Assembly: GCA_033961575.1 (NCBI GenBank)
Contig: CM066728.1
Coordinates: forward strand, 112,443,852 to 112,507,851
Source of the DNA: Aselliscus stoliczkanus
Lineage: Eukaryota > Chordata > Mammalia > Chiroptera > Hipposideridae
Direction of reading: 5' to 3'
Length of the DNA stretch: 64,000 bases
Shown: in pieces, positions 4,943-57,640 of the stretch
How positions within the stretch are numbered: the stretch's first letter is position 1
How the letters are laid out: each line of letters begins with the position of its first letter
Position numbers and translations under genes: made by a program
The notes under the pieces: model-generated
Seen by the model: only the letters and a program-made list of their open reading frames with translations
Databases searched by the model: none
What the model was told of the DNA's origin: nothing

Positions 4943-5049
4943 GTGCTCACTTCGGCAGCACATATACTAAAATTGGAATGATACAGAGAAGATTAGCATG
5001 GCCCCCGCGCAAGGATGACACACCAATTCGTGAAGCGTTCCATATTTTT
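4943..5049 (+). pseudogene. RNU6 (pseudogene): U6 snRNA retropseudogene, 5' part of a U6-L1 chimera
   Basis: A full-length 107-nt U6-like sequence starts GTGCTCACTTCGGCAGCACA, contains the ATACAGAGAAGATTAGCATGG catalytic region (with the ACAGAGA box) and ends CCATATTTTT. It differs from the usual U6 at only a few positions, for example GCTCAC for GCTCGC and ACACACCAA for ACACGCAAA. It runs straight into L1 ORF2 sequence at 5050 in the same orientation. No proximal-sequence-element or TATA arrangement is evident upstream, so it is unlikely to be transcribed as U6. Confidence 0.95.
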
Positions 5050-8734: not shown

Positions 8735-9068
8735 ACCTCGCTGCTGCCGCTGCCGCTGGCCGAGGACACAGCCCCTCCGGGAAAATGCATGGCTGCTGCT
8801 GCTGCTGCCGCTGGCCGAGGACACAGCCCCTCCAGGAAAATGCATCGCTGCTGCTGCCGCCGCCGCTGGCCAAGGACACAGCCCCTCCAGGAAAATGCAT
8901 GGCTGCTGCTGCCGCCGCCGCTGGCCAAGGACACAGCCCCTCCAGGAAAATGCATGGCTGCTGCTGCCGCTGCCGCTGGCCGAGAACACAGCCCCTCCAG
9001 GAAAATGCATGGCTGCTGCTGCCGCTGCCACTGGCCGAGGACACAGCCCCTCCGGGAAAATGCATGGG
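8735..9068. repeat. 55-bp minisatellite, about six units
   Basis: GAAAATGCAT recurs at 8781, 8836, 8891, 8946, 9001 and 9056, an exact 55-bp period. Each unit has a GCTGCTGCTGCC run, CGCTGGCC, GGACACAGCCCCTCC and the ATGCAT palindrome. Because 55 is not a multiple of 3, each reading frame cycles through the unit, giving open frames on both strands that are not genes. Confidence 0.97.
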
Positions 9069-39350: not shown

Positions 39351-39736
39351 GTGACTCAGGAGGAACGCCGGGTGTCGGGGCGATCTCGGCTCCTCGGACG
39401 GAATTCGTGTGTCAGCGCGCGTGGGCCCCTCCGCGCGCGTCCGCGGCCCGGCCGGGCTGACGTCAGAGCCTCCGCCGCTTAAAGCCGCGCGCCTCTGACT
39501 TGACGGGTTCGCGAGACTGGTTTTTCTTTTTTTTTTCTTTTTTTTTTTTCCTTTTTTGCAAAATATGTATTTGTGTCGCCGCTGCGAGGCCGGTCGGTCC
39601 CAGAGCCCCCTCGAGGCTCCGGATTGCGGAGCTAAAAGGGGCGCGGCGGCAGCCGCCGCTCAGGTTCCCACCTGCTCCCGAAAGTTTGCGGAGCGCGTGG
39701 CTGGATTAACCCGCTGCCCCGCCTCGCTTCCCGCAG

Positions 39737-39811
39737 TGCCCAGGCGCCAGCGGCCCCGGAGCAGCGGCCCAGCCACAGCGGCCCCTGCGCACAGCACCCC
39801 GCCGGCTCGCC
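39737..39811 (+). other. IRX4: IRX4 5' UTR portion, probably spliced to an upstream non-coding exon
   Basis: A pyrimidine-rich tract ending CTTCCCGCAG at 39727-39736, with a branch-point-like TTAAC about 25 bases upstream, forms a convincing 3' splice site 75 nt before the ATG. This fits a mammalian IRX4 structure with a non-coding first exon. Alternatively the transcript could start nearby and run through this site unspliced. Confidence 0.6.
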
Positions 39812-39856
39812 ATGTCCTACCCACAGTTCGGATACCCCTACTCCTCGGCGCCCCAG
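39812..39856 (+). CDS. IRX4: IRX4 coding exon 1 (15 codons)
   Basis: Encodes [15 protein letters not shown] and ends at CAG|GTAAGG (donor GT at 39857-39858), phase 0. The last 24 nt (YPYSSAPQ) and the donor are the founder copy of the 43-bp array that runs into intron 1. A 3' splice site at 39735-39736 suggests that this exon starts at 39737 in the mRNA. Confidence 0.95.
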
Positions 39857-42800
39857 GTAAGGAGGCCCCACGGGGCACCCCTACTCCTCGGCGCCCCAGG
39901 TAAGGAGGCCCCACGGGGTACCCCTACTCCTCGGCGCCCCAGGTAAGGAGGCCCCACGGGGTACCCCTACTCCTCGGCGCCCCAGGTAAGGAGGCCCCAC
40001 GGGGCACCCCTACTCCTCGGCGCCGCAGGTAAGGAGGCCCCACGGGGTACCCCTACTCCTCAGCGCCCCAGGTAAGGGGGCCCCACGGGGTACCCCTACT
40101 CCTCGGCGCCCCAGGTAAGGAGGCCCCACGGGGCACCCCTACTCCTCGGCGCCCCAGGTAAGGAGGCCCACGGGGTACCCCTACTCCTCGGCCCCCCAGG
40201 TAAGGAGGCCCACGGGGCACCCCTACTCCTCGGCGCCCCAGGTAAGGGGCCCACGGGGCTGGGCACGCTGGCTGGCGGGCTGGGCTGGCTGCCGACCTGA
40301 TGTGGCTTCCCCGCGAGTCCCGGGAAGGGCAGGGGTAACGGGAAATGCCGTCGCGCGGGGGGGGGGGCCCAGGTCCCCCTTAGTTTAACCTCCGCTGCAG
40401 GGCTCTGAGGCTGCCCCTCAGGGGATCCCGGGCACCCGGGTGACACCCGACCCAGGAGCGCTCGCCAGGCCTTGGAAAGGCCCCGGGGAGGTGTGAACAC
40501 GCCCGGCCACGACTGGCTGCCCCGCCGCGGGGCTGCAGGGGCCCGAGCTTGTAACCCGCGTGGAGGGCGGTGGACCCCGAGGCCATGGGGCAGGCCCCCG
40601 GGCGGCCCAGGGCCCACGCTTCCTCGCGGCCCCTCTCCCCCCAGTTCCTGATGACCACCAACTCCCTGAGCACGTGCTGCGAATCGGGCGGCCGCACGCT
40701 GGCCGACTCCGGGCCGCCCGCCTCGGCCCAGGCGCCCGTCTACTGCCCGGTCTACGAGAGCCGGCTGCTGGCCACGGCGCGCCACGAGCTCAACTCGGCC
40801 GCGGCGCTGAGCGTTTACGGGGGTCCCTACGGGGGCTCGCAGGGCTACGGCAACTACGTGGCCTACGGCTCCGAGGCGTCTGCCTTCTACTCGCTGGTAA
40901 GGGGCACAGGTGCACGTCCGCCCCGCTGCGCCGGCCTCGCTTTCCCGGACCCCGGAGGCGGCGAGGCCCCGCACCCGACTCTCTGGGGTGGGAGAAACCG
41001 CCTGAACTGTGCGCTTCCCAGCCCGGCCCCTGCAGCACCCCGGCCCCCGCGGGGCGACCCGGCAGGTGGCTCGCCGTGGCCATTGTAGGGCTGCTCTGGG
41101 GTCCCCAGTGAGTTCCGGTGGGATCCCTGGTGCTGCCGGAGCGGGCTGTGCCCTCCCGCACCCCTGCGCTCCCCGCCCAGCGGCCGCCCCTCCCCTGCAG
41201 GCCTCCCTCCCTCCTTCGCCCAGCCCCCTGGCTCCTCCCCGCGTCTCCCCTTCTCCTCGGCCGCATTTCCCGGCCCTCCCTCCTCTCCCCTGCCTCCGGC
41301 ATCCCTCCCCTCTCTCCTGCTCCCCTACAACCGTTCCCTGACCCCCAACCCCCCCCCTCCCCCAGCTCTGCTCTCATTCCACGTCTCGAGGCTCCTTCGC
41401 TGCCTGGGCTCTAGGGACGGTGTGGGGAGCCAGGGGCCCGGGGGAGGGGCGCGCGCGGGGTGGCGACCCCAGGCTCCGTGTCTCCCACAGAACAGCTTCG
41501 ACTCCAAGGACGCGCCGGGCTCTGCGCATGCGGGCCTCGCGCCCGCCGCCGCCGCCGCCGCCTATTACCCCTACGAGCCCGCCCTGGGCCAGTACGCCTA
41601 CGACAGGTGAGCGCCCACCCTCCTCACCGGCCCCTGGGCCCCTGCGCCCCGTCAGCCCTCCACCCCACCAGCCCCGCCCCCAGGAAAGGCCGGGCGGCAG
41701 TCGAGGCCGTGCCTCTGAGGTCGCTGAGCTGACCAGGCCTCGGTTTCGGCCGACACCTGGCGAGCCCGTGAGGCTGGGATTCAGCGCGCCCCCGTCTCAC
41801 ACCCGCCCCTGCGCGGCCTGGCCTCCCACAGCCCTCGCTGTGCTGTGCGCTTGGGGGGTCGCATCGTGCTGCCCAAGCTTCGGATGCCTCCCTCACCCCC
41901 AAGAAGTGCAGCCCGTGTGCCGTGTCCCGCCGGCCCCAGCCCACTGCCCTCGCGGTGGGAACCGGAGGGGCGTCCTTGCCCACTCGCAGACAGCATGCCA
42001 CAGCTTCCGCGGAGCGACAGTTACACATTTAACTTCAGAAAGCCTACGTAGGCCCTCTGGGCATTTTCTCCCCGTTGGCGCCAATGAATGGTACAGCCCT
42101 TGGGCTTACATCCTCTGGTTTGCAACTCTGATATGTCTTCCCGGTTTCGGGAATCAAAAGGGTAGGAGAGAGGCCCAATAAAGGAACTGAAAGATGAGTA
42201 TGTCTATTGGAGTGACACACCTAGCCGGGCCTGGTGCCTGTGTCTCATCCTTGACCTCTCTGGCTCGCAAAAGAGCCCAGGCTCCGGGTAAGTGTAGTGA
42301 AATATAGACATTCTGTGCACCCTCGGGCCAAAAGCTGCAGTCCTCGTGAGCAGCGGCGCTGGGTGGGCCGCGGTCGTACCCAGGTCTTACCACCATAAAC
42401 ACCCCCCCCCACTACCAGAGGCCCATTCCCCCGCCTGTCTCCAGGTACAGCACCATGGACAGCGGCACGCGGCGGAAGAACGCCACGCGCGAGACCACGA
42501 GCACGCTCAAGGCCTGGCTGCAGGAGCACCGCAAGAACCCCTACCCCACCAAGGGCGAGAAGATCATGCTGGCCATCATCACCAAGATGACCCTCACGCA
42601 GGTCTCCACCTGGTTCGCCAACGCGCGCCGGCGCCTCAAGAAGGAGAACAAGATGACGTGGCCGCCCAGGAACAAGTGTGCCGATGAGAAGCGGCCCTAC
42701 GGGGAGGGCGACGAGGACGAGGGCGGCGAAGAGGACGCCCGGGATGAGCCCCTCAAGAGCACCAAGAATGAAGGTGGGCCCGAGACCACACCTCCCTGTG

Positions 42801-52499: not shown

Positions 52500-52660
52500 C
52501 CGTCACTGCCCCCCTGAACCCCCTCACAGCCCTCATTCCCCCGGGTCCCCCCACAGCCCCCCGCCCCCCTGGGCACCCCCACAGCCCTCAGTCTCCCTGG
52601 GTCCCCCCACAGCCCCCCGCCCCCTGGGCACCCCCACAGCCCCCCGCCATGCCCATTCCC
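52500..52660. repeat. C-rich tandem repeat, ~53-bp unit
   Basis: About two and a half copies of a unit with GGGTCCCCCCACAGCCCCCC and GGGCACCCCCACAGCCC. Confidence 0.85.
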
Positions 52661-57214: not shown

Positions 57215-57640
57215 ACGCTGGGGTCCTGGGGCTGAGCTGGACTCCCCCCCTGGGGTCCTGGGGCCGTGATGGACATCCCCCACTGAGGTCCTGGGTCTGT
57301 GCTGGACATCCCCCCCTGGGGTTCTGGGGCCATGCTGGACATCGCTCCCTGGGGTCCTGGGGCTGAGCTGGACTCCCCCCCCTGGGGTCCTGGGGCTGAG
57401 CTGGACATGCCCCCTGGGATCCTGGGGCCGTGCTGGACATCCCCCCTGGGTCCTGGGGCTGAGCTGGACATCCCCCCTGGGTCCTGGGGCCGTGCTGGAC
57501 ATCCCCCCCTCTGGGGTCCTGGGGCCGTGCTGGACATCCGCCCCTGGGGTTCTGGGGCTGAGCTGGACATCGCCCCCTGGGGTCCTGGGTCTGTGCTGGA
57601 CTCCCCCTCTGGGACCCTGTCTCCAGGGCCTTTTCCCACC
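57215..57640. repeat. ~32-bp minisatellite, about 13 units
   Basis: Units of the form TGGGGTCCTGGGGCTGAGC followed by TGGACATCCCCCC, length about 29-34 bp, with three alternating cores (GCTGAGC, GCCGTGC, GTCTGTGC). Several frames on both strands stay open across it, with no sign of a real gene. Confidence 0.93.

Follow-up and report, generated by a model that had tools for sequence, protein, structure and literature searches.

Ten tandem copies of the IRX4 exon 1 splice donor form a minisatellite at a coding junction in the bat Aselliscus stoliczkanus

In the genome of Aselliscus stoliczkanus, the end of IRX4 coding exon 1 and the beginning of intron 1 are repeated head to tail ten times, and each of the ten copies carries the same splice donor, CAG|GTAAGG. 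The array lies within a stretch of 64,000 nucleotides that we analysed as a whole (hereafter the window), and its features are collected in Table 1. Judged by its sequence, it joins an already known kind of element, the minisatellite containing a live donor, as described in IFI6 and ABCA7. We consider it probable that this minisatellite was born at the IRX4 junction and has been tolerated because most splicing goes through donor 1 and only a little leaks into decay. The mechanism put forward in a first-pass annotation of the same DNA, in which the array sets up donor competition and nonsense-mediated decay (NMD) or serves as a landing strip for U1, is possible but not favoured.

The nine-base sequence CAGGTAAGG occurs at ten exact sites, all on the forward strand, and nowhere else on either strand of the 64-kb window. 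Successive donors are separated by seven steps of 43 bp followed by two of 42 bp, and Tandem Repeats Finder (TRF) delimits the array at 39834-40259, with a period of 43, 10.0 copies, 95% matches and a score of 761. Each unit comprises the last 23 nt of coding exon 1 and the first 20 nt of intron 1 (19 in copies 8 and 9). The first-pass annotation had described ten tandem copies of the exon 1 donor in 43-bp steps, the last two of 42 bp, with about 19 bp of intron per unit; TRF and direct matching confirm the copies, the site positions confirm the steps, and the intron share needed only the exact count given here. With head-to-tail units of 43 bp, the array falls among minisatellites, whose units measure roughly 10-100 bp. 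It is, moreover, of the IFI6 and ABCA7 kind: copy 1 is the real exon end with its donor, and every further copy holds a functional-looking donor with the identical CAG|GTAAGG. The duplex of this donor with U1 has an energy of -11.5 kcal/mol, equal in both flank types tested. When a 25-base core of the unit was sought as exact matches only in the genome (2.187 Gb in 146 contigs), seven were found, all within the IRX4 array, the remaining three copies carrying substitutions. The IRX4 neighbourhood is repeat-rich, with further minisatellites at window positions 57218-57613 (33-bp unit, 12.2 copies), 8740-9067 (55-bp unit, 6.0 copies) and 52508-52642 (55-bp unit, 2.4 copies). A full-length match to U6 snRNA (109.9 bits), gene or pseudogene, lies on the forward strand at 4943-5049.

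Table 1. Features of the IRX4 donor array and gene model (window coordinates), and of the DNAH3 donor triplication
Feature	Position	Strand	Basis or remark
IRX4 coding exon 1 (15 residues), ending at donor 1	39812..39856	+	translation in frame with exon 2; conserved peptide junction
Tandem array, ten copies of exon end plus intron start	39834..40258	+	TRF, direct match
Copy starts	39834, 39877, 39920, 39963, 40006, 40049, 40092, 40135, 40177, 40219	+	TRF, direct match
CAGGTAAGG starts	39854, 39897, 39940, 39983, 40026, 40069, 40112, 40155, 40197, 40239	+	direct match
Donor 1, GTAAGG, the only one keeping IRX4 in frame	39857..39862	+	translation
Donor 2, shifted frame ending in exon 4, 86 nt ahead of the final exon junction	39900..39905	+	translation
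Donor 3, TGA at exon 2 start; holds TAA 39944-39946	39943..39948	+	direct match, translation
Donors 4-10 (GT at 39986, 40029, 40072, 40115, 40158, 40200, 40242)	39986..40247	+	direct match, translation
Copy 10, intron side QVRGPRG	40219..40258	+	same as read-through of two database proteins
IRX4 exon 2; acceptor ...CCCCCCAG|TTCCTG; in-frame Met18	40645..40896	+	translation
IRX4 exon 3	41491..41606	+	translation
IRX4 exon 4 (homeodomain)	42445..42773	+	translation, domain match
IRX4 exon 5 to stop codon	43194..44017	+	translation
DNAH3 donor triplication, exon GMVEKWLRQVEQVMLTSLREVIRLGLEAYVQ	contig 15, ~2.799 Mb (L064:972-1066, L070:8475-8619)		three donors, 26-bp steps

The exons listed in Table 1 assemble into an IRX4 protein of 521 aa with an intact frame and a Homeobox KN domain. 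In the database it matches IRX4 of Hipposideros larvatus best (93% identity), followed by the bat Artibeus (89%) and then by carnivores and bats at about 87%, a ranking that fits a genome close to Hipposideros; seven probes for SINE motifs had no match. The gene and its exon 1 donor had been named correctly from the start. Among 120 listed proteins of 3006 passing, which range from fish to mammals, the peptide spanning the junction of exons 1 and 2, ...PQ|FLM, is present in 105 when variants are allowed and letter for letter in 83. In 4 of these 120 proteins the IRX4 start is annotated at the residue matching Met18 and, given that Met18 is in frame, it is conceivable that an IRX4 lacking 17 residues would be begun there on mis-spliced mRNA. 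Rescue through an upstream ATG at 39565 was rejected, since that frame meets a stop at 39901 and no donor links it to IRX4. The upstream frame (window 39565-39903) overlaps the IRX4 start in another frame, and the annotated start of the entries from cheetah (P0103) and raccoon dog (P0066) seems to be the ATG matching 39565.

Translation of the product of each donor bears out the consequences that the first-pass annotation had predicted. Only donor 1 joins exon 2 in the frame of the 521-aa protein; donor 2 shifts the frame, and we place the resulting stop in exon 4; donor 3 leads to a TGA at the exon 2 junction; and the products of donors 4-10 terminate at the in-frame TAA at 39944-39946, after 44 aa. 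Because 43 leaves a remainder of 1 on division by 3, the frame moves with each extra 43-bp copy, and the TAA within GTAAGG falls in all three frames. The usual rule is that a stop more than about 50-55 nt upstream of the last exon junction exposes an mRNA to NMD. Here the last junction is 86 nt or more downstream of every premature stop, so that the products of donors 2-10 would be placed for decay, and all nine may fairly be predicted to be NMD targets by this rule.

The closest precedent is human ABCA7, in which, according to the available portion of the report (PMC5954066), a 25-bp VNTR has its start at the donor of exon 18. Use of the second donor, which leaves one unit in the mRNA, is given there as 2 ± 1%, out of frame and independent of VNTR size, while longer alleles show lower expression and more exon 19 skipping (PMC5954066). 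Like the IRX4 array, the VNTR of intron 18 begins at a live donor, each of its units can supply a donor, and retaining one unit is out of frame. The two differ in that ABCA7 has a 25-bp unit, a length that ranges from 12 units to alleles of 9711 bp, and an internal exon (PMC5954066). Its unit was counted by the authors from the GT, whereas that of IRX4 takes in 23 nt of exon; and population variation and RNA are known for ABCA7, whereas the IRX4 array is known from the sequence of one assembly. In human IFI6 (6-16), the accessible text of PMC4526556, citing Turri 1995, describes a minisatellite at an exon end that gives several donors, with two downstream units used and three mRNAs. Here too, as in IRX4, an exon-end minisatellite places several splice donors in one transcript. 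The IFI6 unit is 12 bp long and keeps the frame, unlike that of IRX4, which is 43 bp long and frameshifting. In the open-licence literature, by titles and the starts of abstracts, we found no repeat described in IRX4.

From the ABCA7 precedent, our best forecast for IRX4 is a preference for donor 1, with donor 2 accounting for a minor leak; strong competition should not be assumed by default, since the second donor of ABCA7 is used at only about 2%. We hypothesize that a GC-rich segment of 43 bp, straddling the exon 1/intron 1 junction by chance, was duplicated in tandem and then expanded to ten copies. The spliceosome would mostly commit to donor 1, and the array would therefore be tolerated. 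The extra donors may bind U1; little if any frameshifted mRNA would escape through them, and its degradation by NMD would leave IRX4 output slightly lower. The array would then be no evolved switch.

Protein searches with the donor-2 product are consistent with this hypothesis, in that none of the matches (one for a 113-aa query, and seven for a 232-aa query, scored among 7993 candidates sharing most words) joins exon 1 and one unit to exon 2. We stress that, as NMD targets are seldom recorded as proteins, this negative is weak evidence. The single match of the 113-aa query, a human IRX4 entry of 109 aa (P0121), was rejected as a donor-2 product because its acceptor seems to lie upstream of exon 2; the frame of this human isoform shifts after SSAPQ. 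Human IRX4 isoform 2 was also discarded as an analogue, since it uses a separate 78-bp exon according to the available part of PMC8143155.

Some observations speak against a junction-born, tolerated minisatellite. Predicted accessibility does not favour donor 1, for which it is 1.5e-4 as against 6.4e-3 for donor 9, donor 10 having the lowest value (8.6e-5). When identical donors are duplicated the intron-proximal copy is often preferred, which would favour donor 10. A further point is the number of substitutions in the protein. Of the 62 leading database rows, we aligned with the window IRX4 the 57 whose start could be recognised, and a column was called conserved when 93% or more of the other rows agreed in it. 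At the 311 columns conserved in placentals, the window protein has 9 substitutions, tied for second highest of 58 rows, compared with 3 in Hipposideros, 1 in Artibeus, 1 in Myotis, 4 in Pipistrellus and 5 in Pteropus; two of the nine are common to Hipposideros. These changes could mean mildly relaxed constraint on IRX4 in this species, of which they are only a weak hint because the database rows are cluster representatives.

Comparison of the copies gives some indication of how the array arose. Among the ten copies, 7 of 43 columns are variable (two of them length changes), and none of these falls within the donor 9-mer. The first-pass annotation had drawn attention to a donor that stays unchanged while other positions vary; this is literally so, but it fails as a sign of constraint, as such invariance is expected by chance with P = 0.17, given 7 variable columns of 43 in ten copies. 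Among copies 1-7 the mean difference is 1.4 of 43 positions, and the array is thus young or homogenised. Translated from the CAG, copies 1-5 and 7 read QVRRPHG, copy 6 QVRGPHG, copies 8-9 QVRRPTG and copy 10 QVRGPRG. Two database proteins, P0058 of Thomomys bottae and P0122, run on past SSAPQ with QVRGPRG and then show no unit repeat in the part examined; we take their tails to be read-through of a single-copy intron start. Since copy 10 alone shares this peptide with them, it probably keeps the ancestral intron start, which suggests growth of the array on the exon side of that copy. A higher-order structure of three units (129 bp, frame-keeping), marked by a C/T label at the copy ends, was considered and rejected: a period of 3 fits 5 of 6, with P = 0.15 over periods 1-4. 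Nor is a special RNA structure supported, as 62 of 100 shuffles of a 489-nt stretch fold at least as well (z = 0.41).

It seems to us unlikely that the array tunes dosage, with ten equal donors competing, a substantial out-of-frame share decaying and the number of copies setting the level of IRX4. Each of the nine extra donors does predict a stop that precedes the last junction by 86 nt or more, the -11.5 kcal/mol duplex with U1 is the same in both tested flank types, and ABCA7 expression falls as its VNTR lengthens. However, the second ABCA7 donor is used at about 2%, and unit retention there is unchanged by VNTR size (PMC5954066, in the portion available). In IRX4 itself the reading frame is intact, and the database matches of the 113-aa and 232-aa queries include no donor-2 protein.

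More doubtful still is a self-erasing array, in which the copies act as ten recursive splice sites of the form (Y)nNCAG|GTAAGG, each exon end doubling as a 3' splice site. Donor k (k >= 3) would be joined to exon 2 first, and donor 1 would then re-splice to the CAG left there, removing about 43 x (k-1) nt and yielding normal IRX4 mRNA. Were donor 10 used first, the product would still have donor 1, and a CAG at the junction, and its frame could be restored; a misstep at donor 3 or any later donor could be undone. Between donor 1 and copy 2 the intron would measure 43 nt, which is too short. The sequence of the copies resembles that of recursive sites, (Y)nNCAG|GTAAGT-like with G rather than T at +6: each exon end is a pyrimidine-rich ACCCCTACTCCTCGGCGCCCCAG before GTAAGG, with single changes in copies 5, 6 and 9. 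Between -20 and -5, copy 9 has a pyrimidine fraction of 0.81 and the other nine copies one of 0.75, the 97th and 92nd percentiles among the 1356 NCAG|G sites of the window; these values are comparable to those of the four true IRX4 acceptors (0.69-0.81). Yet C predominates in the tract, where T fills just 3 of 20 nt, and a branch point would be hypothetical.

As far as the consulted portions of the literature go, (Y)nNCAG|GTAAGT is the consensus of recursive sites in Drosophila; more than 60% of the recursive sites in one human study were without the expected donor, which counts against this reading, while another human study held to YAG|GT (PMC5126111). Proven exon-end acceptors are few: lariats have revealed such use of the exon end in 10 human cassette exons (PMC10156609). 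One recognised way in which new introns arise is by tandem duplication of AGGT segments (PMC3443670). The described recursive or dual-specificity sites (PMC5126111, PMC10156609, in the parts available) share with the IRX4 copies a CAG|GTAAG with upstream pyrimidines, readable as acceptor and then as donor; they are not tandem arrays, and the likeness to IRX4 is one of sequence only. If the recursive reading were true and of wide application, any duplication spanning a YAG|GT junction preceded by a pyrimidine tract would correct itself, and the survival of frame-breaking repeats in important genes would be explained. On contig 3 of the same genome, at 164,928,922-164,929,053 (L039), a 62-bp unit is present in 2.9 copies (100% match), each with a T-rich tract followed by CCAG|GTAAGG, resembling three recursive splice sites in a row.

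How often donors are repeated elsewhere in the genome was judged from triplets of donor motifs. Triplets of CAGGTAAG with gaps of 5-35 gave 34 matches at 9 places, against 48 for a reversed-pattern control, and with gaps of 36-66 gave 15 matches at 6 places (control 66), which together make 12 distinct places. Triplets of CAGGTGAG, the GTGAG form, matched 695 times against 40 for the control and, among the matches listed (contigs 1 and 2), fall largely into a few long arrays; AAGGTAAG gave 7 matches against 63,615, a control count that we take to be swollen by simple repeats. Long CAGGTGAG minisatellites were seen on contig 2 at 104.136-104.138 Mb and 113.087 Mb and on contig 1 at 206.207 Mb (50, 77 and 27 motif copies in the stretches fetched). 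We inspected the flanks of 17 places besides IRX4 (11 of CAGGTAAG and 6 of CAGGTGAG), comparing one frame from each of 7 with Pfam and judging the other 10 by eye, where exon ends may be hidden. The Pfam comparison returned one match, to DHC_N2, at 19.4 bits, under the Pfam cut-off of 31.9.

The corresponding exon alone matches dynein axonemal heavy chain 3 among PDB sequences at E 1e-9 and, once donor 1 is joined to the next exon, does so over 67 residues without a gap (E 7e-31); the top PDB row for the joined exons, of 4069 residues (E 7e-33), bears another name and aligns as the same dynein. As in IRX4, an exon end and its donor are repeated head to tail in DNAH3 and only donor 1 is in frame, donor 2 shifting the frame and donor 3 meeting a stop. 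DNAH3 differs from IRX4 in having three copies and, by eye, a purine-rich sequence before the CAG, without an acceptor-like tract, and would provide a contrast from nature for the recursive reading of the IRX4 copies. Live repeated junctions thus account for 2 of the 12 CAGGTAAG places, a lower bound, since visual inspection was the sole check on most of the remaining places. The earlier view that arrays built from a live junction are unusual can stand for the live junction, with DNAH3 as a further case; it does not extend to donor-motif arrays in general, as the GTGAG matches attest. Donor-like minisatellites are not rare in this genome; the special feature of the IRX4 array is a copy 1 that coincides with a live exon end. 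The presence of a second junction array in the same genome fits a general mutational origin of the IRX4 minisatellite.

The frequency of GTGAG arrays (695 matches), for which we know of no function, also weighs against a U1 landing strip, in which ten promoter-proximal donors would raise U1 occupancy and so protect or boost transcription. Ten strong donors do lie 378-763 nt 3' of a TTAAA motif at 39479 (a motif, not a mapped transcription start), and we nonetheless hold this role to be highly improbable. That the true copy number is different or single is barely credible: short tandem arrays can be mis-sized, but the copies differ from one another at 7 columns, two of them length changes, and the array, of about 425 bp, lies inside a 194.7-Mb contig, which makes a collapse artefact unlikely.

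We see in the IRX4 array a natural experiment that can be put to the test, and not a new system. Its ten donors share a near-identical local sequence and differ mainly in position, so that they constitute a natural competing-donor experiment, and a readout of donor use in this heart-patterning transcription factor would show how position alone guides choice. Together, IRX4 and DNAH3 indicate that a single genome can carry more than one repeated live junction, and such junctions are a possible source of splicing variation that is poorly resolved by short reads.
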